Source: Clostridia bacterium | Lineage (GTDB): Bacteria; Bacillota; Clostridia; Christensenellales; Aristaeellaceae | Assembly (NCBI GenBank): GCA_017410455.1 | Contig: JAFQQT010000011.1 | Span: forward strand, 1-51,261 | Direction: 5' to 3' | DNA: 51,261 nt | Shown here: positions 43,648-51,261 of the stretch, piece after piece | How positions within the stretch are numbered: the stretch's first letter is position 1 | Layout: each line of letters starts with the position of its first letter | Translations under genes and position numbers: made by a program | The notes under the pieces: generated by a model | Seen by the model: only the letters and a program-made list of their open reading frames with translations | What the model was told of the DNA's origin: nothing | Database searches by the model: none

Positions 43648-43721
43648 GCGCCCGTAGCTCAGTTGGATAGAGTGTCAGACTCCGACTCTGAAGGTCGCTG
43701 GTTCGAATCCAGTCGGGCGTA
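43648..43721 (+). tRNA. tRNA-Arg (anticodon CCG)
   Basis: A 74-nt cloverleaf. Acceptor GCGCCCG/CGGGCGT with one G-U, D arm GCTC-AGTTGGATA-GAGT, anticodon stem TCAGA/TCTGA with loop CTCCGAC (anticodon CCG), T arm GCTGG-TTCGAAT-CCAGT, discriminator A. CCA is not encoded. It marks the border between host-like DNA on its left and the lower-GC accessory region on its right, so it is a candidate integration site. Confidence 0.96.
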
Positions 43722-43724
43722 CTT

Positions 43725-44184: not shown

Positions 44185-45576
44185 TCAATTATTCCCTACC
44201 CAGTTATACAAGTGTTGAAGTGTGGCTTCATCCGCCTCAAGAAGATATGTGAACAAAATATCCAGCATCCCCCGGTATACTCTACAGCGATCGTTGTTGG
44301 GATGCGTTGAGATCAGGCTGCCTTCCAATGCATAATTCACGATTGGGCATACGCCGCAATATGGCTGATACACGCAATCGCAACAGCCTGGCAGCGTTTC
44401 CAACAGCGAAGCGGAGCATACCGCCTTACATACGCTGCTGTCAAGCCAGTCGCCATATCCGCTATTCTCTACATTACCAAGTCTGAAAGCATTATCGCCC
44501 ATCTCGGCAAGCATTCGGCCTTCGTCACAGGTATATACATCACCATTGGGTGCAAAGGCGATCTGACCAATGGTCGCTCCACACGGAGAACGCAATTCCA
44601 TGTAGTTAGGTGAATAGCCAAGCAGCATTTTACTCAGGAAGATCGATGCATGCGACTCAAAGAAATGGAGTCCCTTCCTGTTCAGATCGAGAATGGCAGA
44701 AATACCCTCTTGATAGAACTGAATGAACTCTTCCGGGGTATATCCGATCTCGTGCCATCTGCGGCTCGCAGCGCCGAGTCGTGTTAATGGCCGCAAGAAC
44801 ACCGAAGTAAAGCCCAGCTCCGCGTATTCATTCACGATCTCCTTCGCGTACAGGAGAGAAGCCTTTGTTGTCGTCTGAATCGCGCCGACTTCCAAGCCTC
44901 GTGCGCGAAGCATCGCCAATCCACGGAGCATGGTGTCATAGGAACCTTGCCCGTCTGCGCAGGGCCGGTTTCGATCATGAAGATCCCTGGGGCCATCCAG
45001 CGACGTTGAGATGGAGATCTTATTTTCCACAATGAAGTTGACCATCTCTTCCGTCAGCAATGACAGATTGCTGACAATGGTGAAGCTAACCTTTTTGTCA
45101 CCCAGTTTTGCTTTCGCGGCTTTTACCACATATTTGATGGTTTCCCAGTTCAGCAGCGGTTCTCCGCCTTGAAACTCTATGGTCAGATTTTTTGAAGGGG
45201 CCTCGCGTATGCGATCGATCGCTTTATCTGCAGTATCGATGCTCATCCTCGAAGCAGCTGCACATCCATCCGCCTGACAATACACACACCCATTGTTGCA
45301 TTGATTGGTTACAGCAAAGATGAACAGGCTCGTCGGACTGAATAAATACGCATGATTATCTCTTACAGGTTCGATGGCCTCCTGGAGATAGGTCTCGCGC
45401 GATTCCTTAGAGCAAAACAGCCTGCTCTGCAGCATGGCCCACATTTCGCTTTCGGGATCCATAGCGCCAGCAATAAACTGCTGAAAACATTCCTTGCTAA
45501 GAAATGCATAGCGTCCGGAATCATTCGTCAGCAGATACCGGTTCCGAAATGGTTTATAGCGAAAGCTGCCGATCAT
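44185..45576 (-). CDS. hxsB: Radical SAM/SPASM maturase HxsB of the His-Xaa-Ser system
   Basis: A 463-residue radical SAM enzyme predicted to modify the His-Xaa-Ser protein HxsA. An N-terminal domain of about 80 residues (YKPFRNRYLLTNDSGRYAFL) is followed by the radical SAM core with VTNQCNNGCVYCQA (C93, C97, C100 bind the 4Fe-4S cluster). Further motifs are IEFQGGEPLLNW and ISTSLDGPRDLHDRNRP. The C-terminal SPASM domain binds additional clusters: CGATIGQIAFAPNGDVYTCDEG, CDCVYQPYCGVCPI and NNDRCRVYRG. This domain order and the pairing with a second, shorter radical SAM gene are typical of HxsB. The start overlaps the hxsC stop (ATGA). The residue modified and the chemistry are not known to me. 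It is the last gene of the operon. Confidence 0.88.
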   Translation of the reverse strand: MIGSFRYKPFRNRYLLTNDSGRYAFLSKECFQQFIAGAMDPESEMWAMLQSRLFCSKESRETYLQEAIEPVRDNHAYLFSPTSLFIFAVTNQCNNGCVYCQADGCAAASRMSIDTADKAIDRIREAPSKNLTIEFQGGEPLLNWETIKYVVKAAKAKLGDKKVSFTIVSNLSLLTEEMVNFIVENKISISTSLDGPRDLHDRNRPCADGQGSYDTMLRGLAMLRARGLEVGAIQTTTKASLLYAKEIVNEYAELGFTSVFLRPLTRLGAASRRWHEIGYTPEEFIQFYQEGISAILDLNRKGLHFFESHASIFLSKMLLGYSPNYMELRSPCGATIGQIAFAPNGDVYTCDEGRMLAEMGDNAFRLGNVENSGYGDWLDSSVCKAVCSASLLETLPGCCDCVYQPYCGVCPIVNYALEGSLISTHPNNDRCRVYRGMLDILFTYLLEADEATLQHLYNWVGNN

Positions 45577-46451
45577 TGGTCGTTCTCCTTGTCATAGGGA
45601 TGAACGGGACATAATCCCAAGAGGTACGTCGACTTGAACAATCCGCCGCAGGCCTTCTTCTCCGCGCAGGCGTCGCAGGCGTCAGGATATCGGATCTTTT
45701 CCAGGGATATACTGTGCTTAGCCAGCGGCCACGCATGCCTGGGCAACGCGCATAAAGGGAAATCATACAAGCCTACATCAATGGCATGTGCTATCAGGTG
45801 AAGCAAGCCCTTTTCTGAGCGCTGGTACAGCTGATCGTAATCGATCCAGAGTCTGTCGCGGTTATAGGCCGCACGACCATTCATTTCCATCGCGATCAGA
45901 TTGACAACGTCCGCCCGGATTCCCTGATCAACGATCATCTCGCAGGTTTTATTGATCCATTGCACATTTTCACGATGCCCGACAATGCGAATCTCAATTC
46001 TTGCCTCGGTTTGCGCCAGGAATCGAAGCGCATCCAGCGTTTGCTGGAAACTTCCCTCTGTCTGCGTGATATGATCATGAACAACCGCGTCAGGTCCGTG
46101 CAGCAGAATGGCAAATTGATAGTGCTCAGTAATACGCGGATGAATGGCCTCCTGCAAAAACGGAAGGCTCAGTGCACGTCCATTCGTCAATACCAACACA
46201 GGCACGTCAGGCCAGCGTGTATTGATGACATCCATGGCATGAAGCACCTGTTCCCACTTCAAGAATGGCTCGCCGCCAGTAATATCGATGTGCCGGACGT
46301 CATCTTCGATGTTGTCCAGGAGCGAATCCAGGTCACGATCCGTTATGTCTCGCCCCTTCCTGCGCGCGTCAATGCTCATCGGACACATAATGCAGTTCGA
46401 GTTGCAGCGCTCTGTCATCATGAGCACTGCGCTGTTATCATATGAATCCAT
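45573..46451 (-). CDS. hxsC: Radical SAM protein HxsC of the His-Xaa-Ser system
   Basis: A 292-residue radical SAM protein, shorter partner of HxsB. The cluster motif is MTERCNSNCIMCPMS (C16, C20, C23). Next come HIDITGGEPFLKWEQ and VLVLTNGRALS. The C-terminal part has a Cys set, DACDACAEKKACGG and GLCPVHPY, which may bind an auxiliary cluster. HxsB and HxsC always occur together in this system, perhaps as one complex. The start overlaps the protease stop by one base (TGATG) with AGGAGG before it, so translation is coupled. GC content is lower than in host genes, in line with transfer. Confidence 0.88.
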   Translation of the reverse strand: MDSYDNSAVLMMTERCNSNCIMCPMSIDARRKGRDITDRDLDSLLDNIEDDVRHIDITGGEPFLKWEQVLHAMDVINTRWPDVPVLVLTNGRALSLPFLQEAIHPRITEHYQFAILLHGPDAVVHDHITQTEGSFQQTLDALRFLAQTEARIEIRIVGHRENVQWINKTCEMIVDQGIRADVVNLIAMEMNGRAAYNRDRLWIDYDQLYQRSEKGLLHLIAHAIDVGLYDFPLCALPRHAWPLAKHSISLEKIRYPDACDACAEKKACGGLFKSTYLLGLCPVHPYDKENDQ

Positions 46452-47467
46452 CAGTACCCTCCTGACATTCTGACCGCCGTCCAGAGAACCATGCCAAGCG
46501 TCACCAGCAACGCGAATGGGATCTTTCTGACAATGATCACGGATGGCGCTCCATACTTTGAGTGTTCCCAGCGCCGGACTGCCTGCGCTTCGACTTCGGA
46601 TAATCTGGCAGACATGTCTTCCGCAGCATTTGTCGGTAAATCTCTGACGTGCGACGTCGATAAGGCCAGGATGGTGCCCGATGACAGGATCATCCCACGG
46701 CGAACCTCATTTGTTGGTATCCGTCGGTAATTGTAGGCAGCAGCCATGTGCTGGAACAGCATGACGCCCGCAACGACCGCATACACCCACCATTCCGCCG
46801 GGGTATAGGCCCACAGGTCAAAATGCATAAAGCAAAGCATGGCAAGGACGAATACAGCGATGACCGTCTTTTTCCTCATCCACTTACTGCTCCCGAACCA
46901 GTATGCACAAACGAGCATCACAACAGCGACAAACAGCTCGTTCTCGCTGCAAAACCCCGGCGCCAATCCCCATACAATGATTTGCAGGACTGTGATCTCG
47001 ATCATCACAGCTACCATGTACAGGACATCTTTCAGGTGTATTCGTTCCGGAATAAACCGCTCTGCGCGGGTAACAAGCTGGACAATCGTGTCGCCGGCTA
47101 TCCACAGGATCGCGGGCACGAAAATGTATATGTATGGGACAACTGCATACGTCAGACCGCCTGCATCAAGCAAGCGCCCCGGCACACACAGGAACAGGAG
47201 CATGAAAAGCTTCACATCACCGGCCGCCCAGACGCCCGCAGCATACAGCAGGATTGCAAATCCACTCGCGAAAGACAAGCTGAGCGCCCATCCAGCGAGA
47301 TATTCCCGAGCCCCGACTCCGACATATATCACCTGCAACATCGCTACGGTGATCACGCCTCGGAGAAGCCAGCGGTTGGGGACGATACCGTCCGTTATGT
47401 CAGTATACGAGCAAATACCGCCTATAACCAGCATAACACCCAGCAAGAGTACTTCAACCCAAAGCAT
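46451..47467 (-). CDS. Type IV prepilin peptidase-like membrane aspartic protease (A24)
   Basis: A 338-residue membrane protein with about eight to ten helices. The two catalytic Asp motifs of A24 peptidases are visible: SYTDITDGIVPN (D23, as in D-x-x-x-x-x-IPN) and AAGDVKLFML (D84, as in GxGD-[VK]-K). The Cys-rich N-terminal domain of full prepilin peptidases is missing, as in archaeal or TadV-like enzymes. The C-terminal quarter is a soluble stretch (SARLSEVEAQAVRRWEHSKYG), then a last helix. No pilin or secretion ATPase gene is nearby, so its substrate may be HxsA, whose long N-terminal segment precedes a helix; this is inference. It starts after AAAGGAGCAGG and overlaps the genes on both sides. 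Confidence 0.82.
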   Translation of the reverse strand: MLWVEVLLLGVMLVIGGICSYTDITDGIVPNRWLLRGVITVAMLQVIYVGVGAREYLAGWALSLSFASGFAILLYAAGVWAAGDVKLFMLLFLCVPGRLLDAGGLTYAVVPYIYIFVPAILWIAGDTIVQLVTRAERFIPERIHLKDVLYMVAVMIEITVLQIIVWGLAPGFCSENELFVAVVMLVCAYWFGSSKWMRKKTVIAVFVLAMLCFMHFDLWAYTPAEWWVYAVVAGVMLFQHMAAAYNYRRIPTNEVRRGMILSSGTILALSTSHVRDLPTNAAEDMSARLSEVEAQAVRRWEHSKYGAPSVIIVRKIPFALLVTLGMVLWTAVRMSGGY

Positions 47468-47684
47468 TTCCTGCTCCTTTTTGAACAGTCAGACCCAGAG
47501 CATAGTTTGAGAATTCCGCAACGGTCAACTCGGCGTCGTATACGCACTTCACAAATTCACACCGTGCCGTCTGTCCATCCCGGTGCACCAGTATGTGTGC
47601 AAGCTGCCTGTAATCCTCGGCTGCGGCACAGAGCAGATCATAATCGTACAGATCCAAGTCAAACAGAAGGGCATTACTGCTCAT
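47454..47684 (-). CDS. 76-residue protein of the HXS operon, not recognised
   Basis: A small soluble protein encoded between hxsD and the A24 protease. It reads FDLDLYDYDLLCAAAEDYRQ, AHILVHRDGQTARCEFVKC and ELTVAEFSNYALGLTVQKG. The last part (EFSNYALGLTV) resembles the EF-N-L-R-L stretch of HxsD (DEFENALVQQQLRLQL), so it may be a shortened HxsD relative or a recognition partner; the similarity is weak. The ATG at 47684 follows AGGGGATGG and overlaps hxsD by 11 bp; it also overlaps the protease start by 14 bp. This tight coupling argues that it is a real gene. Not matched to any family by me. Confidence 0.65.
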   Translation of the reverse strand: MSSNALLFDLDLYDYDLLCAAAEDYRQLAHILVHRDGQTARCEFVKCVYDAELTVAEFSNYALGLTVQKGAGNALG

Positions 47685-48042
47685 CAAACCATCCCCTGAG
47701 AATATCGTTGGCAGCATTCTCGCCTATAACATTCGGACTGATCACCTTCGGCTTTTCGATCAGTGTTGAAGCCATGGCCCTTCCAAGGAGGATCCTTCGA
47801 ACATCATCGCTTTCCCTGATGAGCTGAAGGCGAAGCTGCTGCTGAACTAGTGCGTTTTCGAATTCATCCGGAGCAAGATCGCTACCCTCCTTAGACTTCC
47901 AGGAAACGATCCATTCCGATTCACTTTGGGCAAGGTGAATATATACGCGGTCAATGAAACTGTAGGCCGCCTTCATCAAAGCTGGCTTCTCATAAATCTC
48001 TTTATCAAATCGCATTTCCACGCATGCACGCCTCACTTTCAC
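47674..48042 (-). CDS. hxsD: HXS system protein HxsD
   Basis: A 122-residue soluble protein of the His-Xaa-Ser system. Family features are FDKEIYEKPALMKAAYSFIDR, WIVSWKSKEG, DEFENALVQQQLRLQL and ESDDVRRILLGRAMAS; the third corresponds to the LLNDYxLRE-like region that names the family. HxsD accompanies HxsA, HxsB and HxsC in all known systems and may bring substrate to the enzymes, though its role is unproven. The start taken is GTG overlapping the hxsA stop (GTGA). An ATG nine codons on (MRFDKEIY) is possible, but both ribosome sites are weak. Confidence 0.8.
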   Translation of the reverse strand: MKVRRACVEMRFDKEIYEKPALMKAAYSFIDRVYIHLAQSESEWIVSWKSKEGSDLAPDEFENALVQQQLRLQLIRESDDVRRILLGRAMASTLIEKPKVISPNVIGENAANDILRGWFDEQ

Positions 48043-48470
48043 TTCTTCGTGTCAGGAACTATAGGCGCGGCCGCAACCGTCACAGACTCAACCGTTGAAA
48101 TAAACGTATTGGCCTGAGGAGTTTGCAACTGAGGCATGCTGCTCAAAGAAGGAACAGGAACAGGGGTAGCGGTCGGGCGCGGCGTAGCCGTGGGGCGCGG
48201 TGTGACATTTCTGTGCGACGCGTGTGAACTATGAGAGTTATGCGTACTTGAACGATGCGAGCTGTGAGAGCTGTGGGAACGATGGGAACTGTGAGAGCGA
48301 TGGGAGCTATGAGAGCGGTGCGCCGCAAATGCATCCTGCGCATACAGAATTCCCAGCAAAAGAATCATTGAGCCCACTGTCAGCAGCCGGTTTCGCGGAA
48401 TATTCCCTTCTTCTTCAAAAATAAAATCAGACACACTCTTCTTGATTTTAGGGAAAATGGAATTATCCAT
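48039..48470 (-). CDS. hxsA: His-Xaa-Ser repeat protein HxsA (putative modified peptide)
   Basis: A 143-residue protein, the likely substrate of the HxsB/HxsC enzymes. Residues 1-25 are a charged lead (FPKIKKSVSDFIFEEEGNIP). A helix follows (LLTVGSMILLLGILYA), and DAFA before AH50 looks like a signal-peptidase I site. Residues 51-86 hold 12 His at a three-residue period, broken once, nearly all as H-x-S; HRSHSSHRSHSSH is the defining family pattern. A Pro/Thr linker (VTPRPTATPRPTATPVPVP, 90-107) and a Ser/Val-rich tail end it. The array would thus be outside the cell or carried there. In known HXS systems the array is predicted to be modified; the product is not known to me. Starts after GGAGG, 15 bp behind the MORN gene. 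Confidence 0.88.
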   Translation of the reverse strand: MDNSIFPKIKKSVSDFIFEEEGNIPRNRLLTVGSMILLLGILYAQDAFAAHRSHSSHRSHSSHRSHSSHSSHRSSTHNSHSSHASHRNVTPRPTATPRPTATPVPVPSLSSMPQLQTPQANTFISTVESVTVAAAPIVPDTKK

Positions 48471-48485
48471 GTGAATGCCTCCGTT

Positions 48486-49547
48486 TTACTTCTGGACTGT
48501 GATCTTGACACATTTACCATTTCTCCAGGTTGTATCGTAATAGATTCCCTGGGTTGAAACATAAGTGATCGTTGATGAGGGATTGTTATTGGTGAATTGC
48601 CCTCGGATGTAGTTGTGTTTTTTGCTGCTTGTGAAGTAGTAGGTTCCATACCCGTTCATCATATCTTTTTTCCAGGAACCAACATAGTGCGCACCGTTTG
48701 CCCAGGTATATGTGCCTTCACCAGACTTAAGGCCCTGACTTAATGAACCAACATAAACGTCGCCATTGGCATACTTGATCGTTGCCTGACCATAGAACCC
48801 CGAACTATCCATCTGGCCTTCGACAGTCGTACCATTTGTGCAGGTTAATGTTGCTTTACGCTGGAGCGTTCCCTCCTGGATCGTCCGAGTCAGCACATTT
48901 CCATTGCGCTGCACAATCTTCATCGTGCCAGTATAAAGGTTTCCACGTTGAAAAGTTCCCGAATAGGTTGTCCCGTCGGCAAATACCAATGTACCATTTC
49001 CGGAAATGCGATCGCTATACCATTGGCCAGTGTAGTGTTCACCAGTATCCCAGACAAAGGTACCTTCTCCTGAACGTTTTCCTTCTGCAAAGCTTCCGCT
49101 ATATGTACCAACGCCAAAGTATATCACAGTAGCCATTCCGTTTTGGGGAACGTCGACTGCTGTACCAACTCCGAGAATTGTTCCGACTTCAGTCGTACCT
49201 AAGCGAAGATCATCTAACTCAAGAAGCGTGTTATATGCCAGCGTTACGGTTTGCCTTTCTACATACTTGGCATCAATATACCCTCGCCGATTACCGTCGA
49301 AAAGGACCTTGTACCAAGTTCGGTTGCCATATTGCTCAACACCAATAACAGTCACTACAGTATCGCTGTCAAGTCTGGTAAGCCTCTCACTGTTTGTATC
49401 AGAATCCTGATATACGCTCACCTTATCAGCAGTAACACAGCCATCAAACGGCAAATCCCATCCTGCATGAGCAATTACTCCATATAGCAATAAAAGAAAG
49501 CATAAAGCGATTGCAATAACTCGAGCAAATACAGCAAATTTCTTCAT
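48486..49547 (-). CDS. Exported SH3-domain/MORN-repeat protein
   Basis: A 353-residue exported protein, first gene of the HXS operon. A signal or anchor segment (FARVIAIALCFLLLLYGVI) is followed by a bacterial SH3-like domain (about 38-97: DKVSVYQDSDTNSERLTRLD, WYKVLFDGNRRGYID). A spacer leads to about seven MORN repeats (from residue 145): GTYSGSFAEGKRSGEGTFVW, EHYTGQWYSDRISGNGTLVF, TTYSGTFQRGN, DVYVGSLSQGLKSGEGTYTW and AHYVGSWKKDMMNGYGTYYF. SH3 domains of this type often bind cell wall; MORN repeats are common protein or lipid contacts. It may display or bind the modified HxsA at the surface; this is inference. Starts after GAGAGGTG behind a strong promoter. Lower GC and more A/T-ending codons than host genes. 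Confidence 0.85.
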   Translation of the reverse strand: MKKFAVFARVIAIALCFLLLLYGVIAHAGWDLPFDGCVTADKVSVYQDSDTNSERLTRLDSDTVVTVIGVEQYGNRTWYKVLFDGNRRGYIDAKYVERQTVTLAYNTLLELDDLRLGTTEVGTILGVGTAVDVPQNGMATVIYFGVGTYSGSFAEGKRSGEGTFVWDTGEHYTGQWYSDRISGNGTLVFADGTTYSGTFQRGNLYTGTMKIVQRNGNVLTRTIQEGTLQRKATLTCTNGTTVEGQMDSSGFYGQATIKYANGDVYVGSLSQGLKSGEGTYTWANGAHYVGSWKKDMMNGYGTYYFTSSKKHNYIRGQFTNNNPSSTITYVSTQGIYYDTTWRNGKCVKITVQK

Positions 49548-49807: not shown

Positions 49808-49858
49808 ACAGCCGTGACCCCAGGAGTCCTCACCAACTCCCGGAGCCACGGCTGTTTT
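49808..49858 (+). terminator. Stem-loop beside the recombinase remnant
   Basis: ACAGCCGTG pairs with CACGGCTGT, followed by TTTT on the plus strand. It abuts the 3' end of the remnant on the other strand, so it may be a leftover bidirectional terminator. Confidence 0.6.
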
Positions 49859-49870
49859 CGTTCCCCCTAT

Positions 49871-50038
49871 TCAGTTCCCCCCATACATCCCCGCCAGCAG
49901 CGCATTGGCCTGGATGATCCTGTCCTCTCGCCCGTGCGCGTACCGGTTCATGGTCGTGCTGATGTCCGCATGCCCGGCAATCGTCTGCAGCGTCTTCACA
50001 TCCAGGTGCGCCGCCGCCATGGTGATGTAGGTGTGCCC
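49871..50038 (-). pseudogene. 3' remnant of a tyrosine recombinase (integrase)
   Basis: Fifty-five codons of the C-terminal part of a phage/ICE-type integrase: GHTYITMAAAHLDVKTLQ, then IAGHADISTTMNRYAHG with the His and the Tyr nucleophile of the catalytic site, ending LLAGMYGGN. The reading is closed directly upstream by TAA, and the Arg of the usual R-H-T is replaced by Gly at the break, so the 5' part with the remaining catalytic residues is lost. GC-rich like the host, unlike the HXS genes. It shows that an integrating element was here and was later cut. Confidence 0.85.
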
Positions 50039-50334
50039 TTATGGTATATTAAGGACAAACCGGGAAAGCCTTGAAAATCAAGGATTTGCGGTTGTCAGGC
50101 GGGTTTTCATCCTTTTCCAAAACGTGAGAGCAAGCCTGAAAAAGTCACTGGTATACTGGGGGTGTAAAATGGACGACAAAAGAATAAGGGAGTAAAAAAC
50201 CTCCCAAATCCCTGAAGGACATCCCCTCTGACAAGAGTGAGATGTCCTTTTTGCGTTCATAACGCGCGTCGATTTCAGAGCATCATCAGGTGCTTTGAAA
50301 ACGGCACACGGAGAAAAGAAAGGAGAAGATCGGA
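50039..50334. other. Gene-free leader of the mobile element
   Basis: No gene is supported in these 296 bp. The base composition drops sharply at about 50038. GTAAAATGGACGACAAAAGA (near 50163) looks like an element border or leader, but this is a weak judgement. A strong terminator-like hairpin is listed separately. Confidence 0.4.
50215..50252 (+). terminator. Terminator or attenuator before parB-like gene
   Basis: AAGGACATC pairs with GATGTCCTT, followed by TTTTT, 83 bp before the start at 50335. Confidence 0.85.
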
Positions 50335-51261
50335 ATGAACAATCAGGCACAGCGCGGTCCTCCCTCAAATGCCGAGGAGAGGAATCCTGCAGTCCATGCA
50401 CGGGATGGCCCTGAACAGGTGGTTGAGCTGTCGCTGACAGAGCTGTACCCATTCAAGAATCATCCGTTCCATGTGGTAGATGATGTTCATATGGAAAGCA
50501 CAGCGCAGAGCATAAAGAACAATGGCGTTCTTGTACCTGTTATTGTGCGTCCCAGAGCAGAAGGTGGCTATGAGATCATCTCCGGGCATCGACGCAAGCG
50601 AGCTTGCGAGATGATCGGCAAAGAAACCATCCCTGCTATCGTCCGTGACCTGGATGATGATGCCGCTACGCTGTTCATGGTGGATTCCAATCTGCAGCGC
50701 GAGCAGCTGCTTCCCAGCGAAAGAGCCTTTGCTTTCAAAATGAAGCTGGATGCCCTGAAACATCAGGGCAAGCGCACCGCCTCAACCTCTGCCCAAGTCG
50801 GTCAGAAGTTGAAAACCTCCATCGAGAAGGTTGCTGAAAAGATTGGTGAAAGTAAAACGCAGGTTCAGCGGTACATCCGTCTGACGCACCTGATCCCGCA
50901 GCTGCTTCAGCTGGTGGATGAACGGCAGATTGCGTTTTCACCGGCGGTTGAGTTGTCATTCCTGAATCAACAGGAGCAGATAGCCCTGCTGGACGCTATG
51001 GACAGCGAGCAAGCCCGTCCATCCCTTTCCCAAGCTCAACGGTTGCGCAAGCTCAGCGAATCAGGCAGTCTGAATATTACCCTGATGCGGAATATCCTTG
51101 CCGAGGAGAAGCTCAACGGTGAAAAGGTAGCAATGGACTACTCAGACTTCCGCGACTACTTTCCCCCGAAAACAACGGATCGGCAGATCCACAAGGTTCT
51201 CATCAAGTTAGTGAGAATCTGGCATCGGCAACAACAGTTGAAGAAAACCCAAGAGGCCCGT
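50335..51261 (+). CDS. ParB/Spo0J-like partition protein, 3' end outside window
   Basis: The first 309 residues of a DNA-binding partition-type protein, probably from a conjugative element. The ParB N-terminal domain has LSLTELYPFKNHPFHVVDD, IKNNGVLVPVIVRPR and the nucleotide-binding ISGHRRKRACEMIG (normally GERR or GHRR), then DSNLQREQLLPSERAFAF. A helix-turn-helix follows (IEKVAEKIGESKTQVQRYIR). After about residue 200 the sequence (SLSQAQRLRKLSESGSL, FRDYFPPKTTDRQI) matches the ParB-like proteins of Tn1549-type ICEs by my recollection. Starts after AAAGGAG. Its GC content is lower than that of host genes. The gene runs off the window. Confidence 0.88.
   Translation, partial: MNNQAQRGPPSNAEERNPAVHARDGPEQVVELSLTELYPFKNHPFHVVDDVHMESTAQSIKNNGVLVPVIVRPRAEGGYEIISGHRRKRACEMIGKETIPAIVRDLDDDAATLFMVDSNLQREQLLPSERAFAFKMKLDALKHQGKRTASTSAQVGQKLKTSIEKVAEKIGESKTQVQRYIRLTHLIPQLLQLVDERQIAFSPAVELSFLNQQEQIALLDAMDSEQARPSLSQAQRLRKLSESGSLNITLMRNILAEEKLNGEKVAMDYSDFRDYFPPKTTDRQIHKVLIKLVRIWHRQQQLKKTQEAR

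Follow-up and report, generated by a model that had tools for sequence, protein, structure and literature searches.

The 51,261-nucleotide stretch of DNA analysed here (the window) is contig JAFQQT010000011.1 from a Clostridia bacterium of the family Aristaeellaceae (assembly GCA_017410455.1), and this report concerns a seven-gene operon in it that encodes a His-Xaa-Ser (HXS) radical S-adenosylmethionine (SAM) peptide-modification system together with a membrane protease and a MORN-repeat protein. An earlier note, made from the letters of the window, had described a single minus-strand operon whose genes overlap or lie no more than 15 base pairs (bp) apart. Both statements hold. The seven genes occupy 44185-49547 on the minus strand with tight spacing, and the limit of 15 bp applies when HxsD is taken to start at the GTG at 48042; an alternative ATG at 48015, picked by eye from related HxsD proteins, would leave a gap of 23 bp. 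The genes, and the parts of the precursor, are as follows, in the order in which they would be transcribed.

48486..49547, minus strand: protein with SH3_3 and MORN repeats (Pfam), 353 amino acids, signal-like N-terminus by eye; likely an exported partner
48039..48470, minus strand: HxsA3 precursor, 143 amino acids (NF038309)
48405..48470, minus strand: HxsA3 leader, residues 1-22, ending in F-I-F-E-E-E-G
48324..48404, minus strand: HxsA3 hydrophobic segment, residues 23-49, ending in AFA, which resembles a signal peptidase I site
48207..48320, minus strand: His-Xaa-Ser/Asn array of HxsA3, residues 51-88, with 12 His
47674..48042, minus strand: HxsD (TIGR03976), with a GTG start or perhaps the ATG at 48015
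47454..47684, minus strand: HxsD-like protein, 76 amino acids (NF038315)
46451..47467, minus strand: A24 (FlaK/EppA-like) membrane aspartyl protease, with putative catalytic Asp23 and Asp84
45573..46451, minus strand: HxsC radical SAM enzyme, short form, 292 amino acids (TIGR03977; Pfam Radical_SAM)
44185..45576, minus strand: HxsB radical SAM enzyme (TIGR03978), whose Cys-rich C-terminus resembles SPASM

The identities of the genes are established by matches to NCBIfam and Pfam, for which bit scores were judged against the curated cut-offs. HxsB (505.7 bits against a cut-off of 370) and HxsD (67.9 against 50) were named correctly in the earlier note. Its expectation that both radical SAM genes would match their HXS models was borne out in full for HxsB and in part for HxsC, whose best match by far is TIGR03977 (244.7 bits, E 8.9e-73, with the runner-up family at 59.8 bits) at a score just under the cut-off of 267.9; HxsC also matches Pfam Radical_SAM at E 1.8e-12. 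The precursor had been called HxsA. It is a His-Xaa-Ser precursor, but not of the original type, scoring 24.9 bits with the HxsA model TIGR03979 (cut-off 121.65) and 110.3 bits with the HxsA3 model (cut-off 65). The 76-residue protein left as an unknown belongs to the curated HxsD-like family (59.0 bits against 41). Pfam recognizes MORN (79.6 bits against 22.5; 6.4e-23) and SH3_3 (38.2 against 27; 1.7e-9) in the first gene product, while Peptidase_A24 in the protease (21.0 bits against 26.5) and SPASM in HxsB (14.3 against 21.5) fall under their cut-offs; the C-terminal Cys of HxsB are invariant in 5 of 5 sequences. On these family matches the operon is a member of the curated family of HxsA3 systems. 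No second HxsB over the cut-off was found in the source genome; another radical SAM gene, on its contig C64, matches the HxsB model weakly and has no HXS neighbours by eye. Compared with many relatives, which often have about 370 amino acids, the window HxsC (292) lacks about 80 residues at its N-terminus, as do those at loci L009 and L019 of the survey described below.

The most regular feature of the operon is the array of HxsA3. The 12 His at a period of three, nearly all in H-x-S, that had been reported earlier are indeed present at residues 51-86, with 10 of the 11 intervals being three and one being five, and with 11 H-x-S triplets and one H-x-N. Among 100,000 shuffles of the array none reached 10 intervals of three, and eight reached 11 H-x-S. 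The same rule is established in relatives, which we counted in 68 unique HxsA proteins, each having six or more triplets (57 from loci with an A24 protease and 11 from loci without). In the A24 group the residue at i+2 of 860 array His is Ser in 678 cases, Asn in 122, Thr in 51 and another residue in 9, so that Ser, Asn or Thr follows in 851 of 860; array edges were set by H-x-[STN], which favours this rule at the array ends and not inside. His recurs at +3 in 628 of the 860, and the middle residue is variable, with Ser the most frequent (434). Cys occurs in one of the 57 arrays. The 11 A24-less proteins have Ser at i+2 for 137 of 146 His.

The regions in front of the array were compared in an alignment of 57 chosen HxsA proteins, from 48 Bacillota-type A24 loci, from L068 and L080, and from seven loci without A24; it omits repeats, near copies and some others, including L091 and L095. 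In its 50 A24-group proteins the acidic leader motif ends in Gly (48) or Ala (2), and a motif of the EE-G/A type is found in all 57 unique HxsA of A24 loci. A hydrophobic segment follows (mean best 15-residue hydropathy 2.5, n = 50), and the first His lies 29 residues beyond the leader Gly/Ala in 42 of the 50 and 30 beyond it in five. The seven A24-less proteins in the alignment have distances of 23 to 38 and a mean hydropathy of 1.97. This near-fixed spacing in the A24 group is established and suggests, as a reading of the alignment, a measured leader or membrane segment, though kinship contributes. Directly before the array, 46 of the 50 carry a tight signal-peptidase-like site, [AVLSTI]-x-[AG]-x-His, where shuffles gave a mean of 6.0 and a maximum of 13. 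A looser AxA pattern, present in 48 of 50, was uninformative compared with the tight form as shuffles reached a mean of 23.5 and a maximum of 34, and a conserved C-terminal P-x-T tail was rejected (16 of 48; shuffled mean 10.0, maximum 16).

Export of HxsA, which the earlier note had proposed, is supported by this predicted site, as well as by the wall-binding domains that a few MORN proteins carry. Among 42 chosen MORN proteins a MORN match was recovered in 41, SLH domains in two (L023 and L035), CWB2 in one (L084), PG_binding_1 in two (L010 and one more) and SH3_3 in one, that of the window; in the remainder Pfam recognized no anchor domain. HxsA3 proteins without a MORN neighbour have a median length of 224 (n = 9, seed profile) as against 163 with one (n = 39). 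Three of these nine (L044, L054 and L062) end by eye in an Ala/Gly-rich segment and a Lys-rich tail, and of the three only L044 passes a hydropathy of 1.4. An additional C-terminal stretch is also seen in L022, L024 and L028, with no Pfam match in the two that were tested. These differences, few in number, give hints of another form of anchoring. Export by the twin-arginine translocation (Tat) route was rejected for the Clostridial type because TatC was found in 5 of 50 HxsA3 genomes. Tat-like hints were seen by eye, with RR-x-F leaders in the HxsA of L091 and L095, which belong to another clade, and R-N-R in the window.

Among close relatives the system is rare. The HxsA3 model exceeded its cut-off in 3 of 150 related genomes including the source, none of them belonging to the 17 further members of the genus; at class level it did so in 3 of 391 genomes, again including the source, and two more matched weakly. 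More distant relatives were collected by scanning a genome collection with an HxsB alignment, and since the best 80 of at least 586 stretches (520 of which encode a relative) were taken, the locus counts describe the best-scoring relatives only. Together with the window and four further loci they make 85 loci, in which A24 and MORN were counted with five-seed profiles and HxsA3, HxsC and HxsD with iterated profiles. A24 lies within 6 kilobases (kb) of HxsB in 61 of the 85 and MORN lies near HxsB in 47, in no case without A24; three loci are repeats (L020, L048 and L058 of L009, L016 and L015), and with these removed the counts are 58 and 44 of 82. An HxsA3-like protein (E < 1e-20) is found in 61 loci, and A24, HxsD, HxsC, HxsB and HxsA3 stand together in 54 of 85 (49 named records), 44 of the 54 with MORN as well. 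The HxsD-like protein is present at 41 of the 61 A24 loci. L009, L010, L015 and L016 all have HxsD, A24, HxsC, HxsB, MORN and HxsA3, in more than one gene order. Conservation of the module is thus established, and since the genes match HXS families (HxsC just under its cut-off) and the neighbours recur across genomes, the description of the operon as an HXS system with additional conserved genes stands.

A tree of HxsB with 81 rows, which excludes the three repeat loci and L086, a short contig, separates the loci by their protease, as the A24 label changes 5 times compared with 18.9 times in shuffles. One clade (100/100) has 24 rows from Myxococcota, Omnitrophota, Elusimicrobiota, candidate phyla and others, and A24 occurs in four of its loci, two of these with A24 more than 6 kb from HxsB. 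Outside it A24 occurs in 56 of 57 rows, the exception, L083, being an HxsB without another HXS gene nearby. Because the tree splits in this way, the A24 association is, on gene content, a property of the Bacillota-type HXS system. Other neighbours vary. A trypsin-like protease gene stands beside HxsA3 in the nearest relatives L009, L018, L019 and L026, and the window has none; L016, L030 and L034 have, downstream of HxsA3, a membrane protein that recurs in 12 of 60 A24 loci and a further large gene common to these three, and L016 has kinase-like and FHA-like genes by eye, possibly for regulation. Several further HxsC-like radical SAM matches follow in series at L070, L073, L074, L076, L080, L081, L088, L093 and L097, whose hosts are candidate phyla, Elusimicrobiota, Omnitrophota and Myxococcota.

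By its family matches the A24 enzyme is similar to the archaeal peptidases FlaK and EppA. Of 53 homologues chosen from 62 clean ones, Peptidase_A24 is matched by 48 at E<=0.01, FlaK_Arch by five, Arc_PepC_II by four and EppA by two, and an A24 profile matches the FlaK structure 3s0x in the PDB at E 0.0079. A structure model built with five sequences (predicted local distance difference test, pLDDT, 72.7) had no PDB match at E<=0.001 and was not used. Both protease Asp are established as conserved: Asp23, Asn31, Gly83, Asp84 and Lys86 are invariant in all 59 copies that reach these positions, a count that includes the three repeat records and leaves out the fused L033 frame, with three copies cut by contig ends not reaching. 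The second motif reads A-A-G-D in the window and is of the GxGD type, which we take to be the site of the second catalytic Asp in the FlaK/EppA branch of Peptidase A24. The HXS gene is the only PF01478 match in the source genome, whose assembly is 92% complete. A T2SSE search of the same assembly found no full pilus-type assembly ATPase, giving two matches, one over the cut-off that covers only model positions 144-254 of 370 (32.4 bits; frame of 302 residues) and the other weak. The family model exceeds its cut-off in 47 of the 50 HxsA3 genomes, a count that includes other A24 genes; an A24 match of any kind is found in 49, exactly one in 16 and more than one in 33. The frames in 13 of the 16 single-A24 genomes are sized as the HXS enzyme or the L033 fusion, judged by frame size in assemblies many of which are incomplete. 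Given the A24 counts across these genomes, and the sole A24 gene and lack of a full pilus ATPase in the source genome, a borrowed pilus gene is unlikely here. By its place in the operon, and with no other substrate evident, HxsA3 is the likeliest substrate. An apparent A24-HxsC fusion was seen in Oscillibacter ruminantium as a single open frame of 1273 amino acids (L033:6174-9995).

For the chemistry, a precedent is given by radical SAM enzymes that form three-residue cyclophanes, which are described in PMC11002830 as joining residue i to the beta carbon of i+2. The rings listed there include C4(Phe)-Cbeta(Ser) by MscB, C2(His)-Cbeta(Ala) by HaaB and ScaB, and C2(His)-Cbeta(Arg) by YhhB. By their i,i+2 rule, with Ser, Asn or Thr all tolerated, and by their scarcity of Cys, the arrays fit this geometry and poorly fit thioether or formylglycine formation. 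Three-residue cyclophanes are our leading guess for the product of HxsB and HxsC, by analogy and at a little under even odds. For HxsD, an AlphaFold2 model of good quality by its score (pLDDT 88.1; order b-a-b-b-a-a) matched nothing in the PDB at E<=0.001, and PqqD was not named among the 50 matches listed. A PqqD-like recognition element was not supported by this comparison, and since no match reaches E 0.001 the role of HxsD as a substrate-binding helper is a guess.

The explanation that best fits these results, with a probability of about 0.5 for the whole scheme, is an HxsA3-type radical SAM system that modifies a peptide and displays it. HxsA3 would be made with its acidic leader, its 27-residue hydrophobic signal segment and its His-Xaa-Ser/Asn array. 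In the cytoplasm HxsB and HxsC, aided by HxsD and the HxsD-like protein, would modify the triplets, most likely by joining the His imidazole to the i+2 beta carbon through a C-C bond, which would turn the array into a string of three-residue cyclophanes. The product would leave by Sec and not by Tat, with signal peptidase I probably cutting after AFA and the FlaK/EppA-like protease probably removing the leader after the conserved Gly/Ala or clearing the membrane segment. On the cell surface the modified peptide would then act together with the MORN protein, which in a few species has wall-binding domains. The proposal that a prepilin-type FlaK/EppA peptidase has been recruited as a dedicated protease of a radical SAM pathway, and that a rod of consecutive His-Ser/Asn/Thr cyclophanes stands on a Gram-positive surface with a wall-bound MORN protein, is possible and, taken as a whole, doubtful.

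Several observations weigh against this scheme, and some of them favour another. HxsB scores higher with the PapB (161 bits, 3.4e-47), nif11-peptide (147 bits), CcpM, SCIFF and QHNDH maturases, and with anSME (sulfatase_rSAM; 109 bits, 2.4e-31), than with the cyclophane makers YhhB (75.5), AmcB (74.4), GrrM (71.7) and FxsB (55), and its best PDB matches are 5wgg (5.5e-37), presumably CteB, and anSME (2.1e-24). These scores would suit the same system and export with a different radical chemistry and no His-Ser ring, in which HxsB oxidises or dehydrates Ser, or HxsB and HxsC epimerise residues; the pairing with HxsC suggests possibly more than one reaction. Asn and Thr at i+2 are not expected under formylglycine formation, and thioethers to array Cys are unlikely in the A24 group because 56 of its 57 arrays have none, though Cys does occur in 4 of the 11 A24-less arrays. 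We consider this other chemistry rather unlikely. Further contrary points concern the protease. A24 was not seen in 20 of the 24 loci of the other clade, so HXS chemistry does not generally require it, and the EE-G/A motif is also present in 10 of 12 HxsA without A24, being missing in L091 and L095. The leader Gly, though the likeliest cut site, was therefore not supported as specific to A24, and EE-G may be a docking motif and not a cut site. The membrane protein that neighbours 12 of 60 A24 loci has no use in the scheme; an SH3 or wall-binding domain is present on at most 6 of the 42 MORN proteins; and the source genome, in spite of the rarity of TatC elsewhere, encodes it. Prepilins have Glu at +5, and the residue at +5 after the leader Gly/Ala in HxsA proteins is not Glu.

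That last point bears equally on the idea that HxsA3 is itself pilin-like, with A24 as a prepilin peptidase that cuts after EE-G and the hydrophobic segment forming a filament that displays the array. The acidic leader, the Gly or Ala at -1, the hydrophobic segment at near-fixed spacing and the Asp pair of a FlaK/EppA-like peptidase are all as such a system would have them. No pilin family appeared for the 57 HxsA proteins among the best 25 of 67 Pfam families at E<=1, though, and the missing full-length assembly ATPase in the source genome and the signal-peptidase-like site after the hydrophobic segment in 46 of 50 also speak against a filament, which leaves it highly improbable. Alternatively, the array could belong to a metal-binding or adhesive His-rich surface protein that radical SAM enzymes tune, while A24 serves other substrates. 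Twelve regularly spaced His would suit this, as would Zip matches in 23 of the 57 HxsA proteins (best 3.4e-4), which fall on His-rich stretches of metal transporters and are probably compositional. The i+2 rule is stricter than metal binding requires, and A24 accompanies HxsB in nearly every row outside the other clade while being the sole A24 of the source genome, so a His-rich protein of this kind seems improbable. The modified and displayed HxsA3 remains the preferred account.

Outside the seven genes themselves, the following features lie near the operon.

43648-43722: tRNA-Arg
49871-50020: tyrosine-recombinase tail, 49 amino acids (Phage_integrase 6.7e-5, 23.2 bits against 27.1)
50031-50317: stretch of 287 bp, 86% identical to part of another genome in the genus
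50335 onward (region 50335-51261): ParB-type gene

Because the recombinase tail, the ParB-type gene and the shared 287-bp stretch adjoin, the operon seems to lie in or beside the remnant of an integrative element near tRNA-Arg. In the other genome a relaxase-like gene is seen by eye about 3 kb from the counterpart of the 287-bp stretch, and the ParB region has two matches each in genomes G006, G008 and G016. An att-site duplication at tRNA-Arg was rejected, as no att repeat was seen and the 22-base 3′ end of the tRNA occurs once in the window. On horizontal movement, the HxsB tree places the window copy with L018, L019, L026 and L009 (the starred group), the nearest HxsB found being 55% identical; L010, from the same family as the window, groups with L079 of the Synergistales (100/100), and the HxsB of L094 from the Eggerthellaceae is placed among the Bacillota. 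Promoter-like and terminator-like sites showed no excess over shuffles (8 against 7.5 and 8 against 7.3). A hairpin of 20 pairs with a short T-rich tail at 49809-49854, between the recombinase tail and the MORN gene, is a possible terminator.

The founding paper on HXS systems is by Haft and Basu. A full-text literature search, with most subscription journals outside its scope, found no product of an HXS system, no paper joining prepilin peptidase, radical SAM and ribosomally synthesised and post-translationally modified peptides, and no relevant paper on MORN repeats with radical SAM. PMC9062424, which maps peptide-modifying radical SAM enzymes, names HxsB as one of its larger clusters and describes His-Xaa-Ser motifs as putatively matured by HxsB and HxsC; PMC8446631 is a further relevant match. 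With A24 and MORN conserved beside it, the repeat protein no longer stands alone but becomes part of a pathway that can be tested for the bond made, the place of the leader cut and the purpose of the display. Should A24 prove to cut HxsA3, it might represent a new class among the leader proteases of such peptides, and a cyclophane rod with a wall-bound MORN protein would be a new kind of surface polymer.

Compared with known systems, the operon resembles HXS systems of the HxsA/HxsB/HxsC/HxsD type in combining, within a single transcription unit, HxsB, HxsC and HxsD with a precursor of His-Xaa-Ser repeats, and differs in having HxsA3 in place of HxsA and in adding the A24 protease and the MORN protein, the latter seen only with A24. 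It is one of the HxsA3-type HXS systems of Clostridia (NF038309, NF038315), and its A24 and MORN neighbours may already be known to the NCBI family curators; from other members it is set apart by SH3 on the MORN protein, a short HxsC, and MORN and HxsA3 genes upstream of HxsD. With triceptides (MscB, HaaB, ScaB, YhhB) it has in common an aromatic residue and an i+2 partner, Ser and His each having a precedent in PMC11002830, whereas here a dozen triplets follow one another in an array, the radical SAM enzymes number two and HxsB is nearer by score to PapB and anSME. Archaeal FlaK/EppA share the Asp pair, and weak FlaK, EppA and Arc_PepC_II matches appear in a minority of members; the A24 enzyme here, in contrast, is bacterial and tied to a radical SAM operon, in a genome where it is the sole A24 match and where no full pilus-type ATPase was matched.

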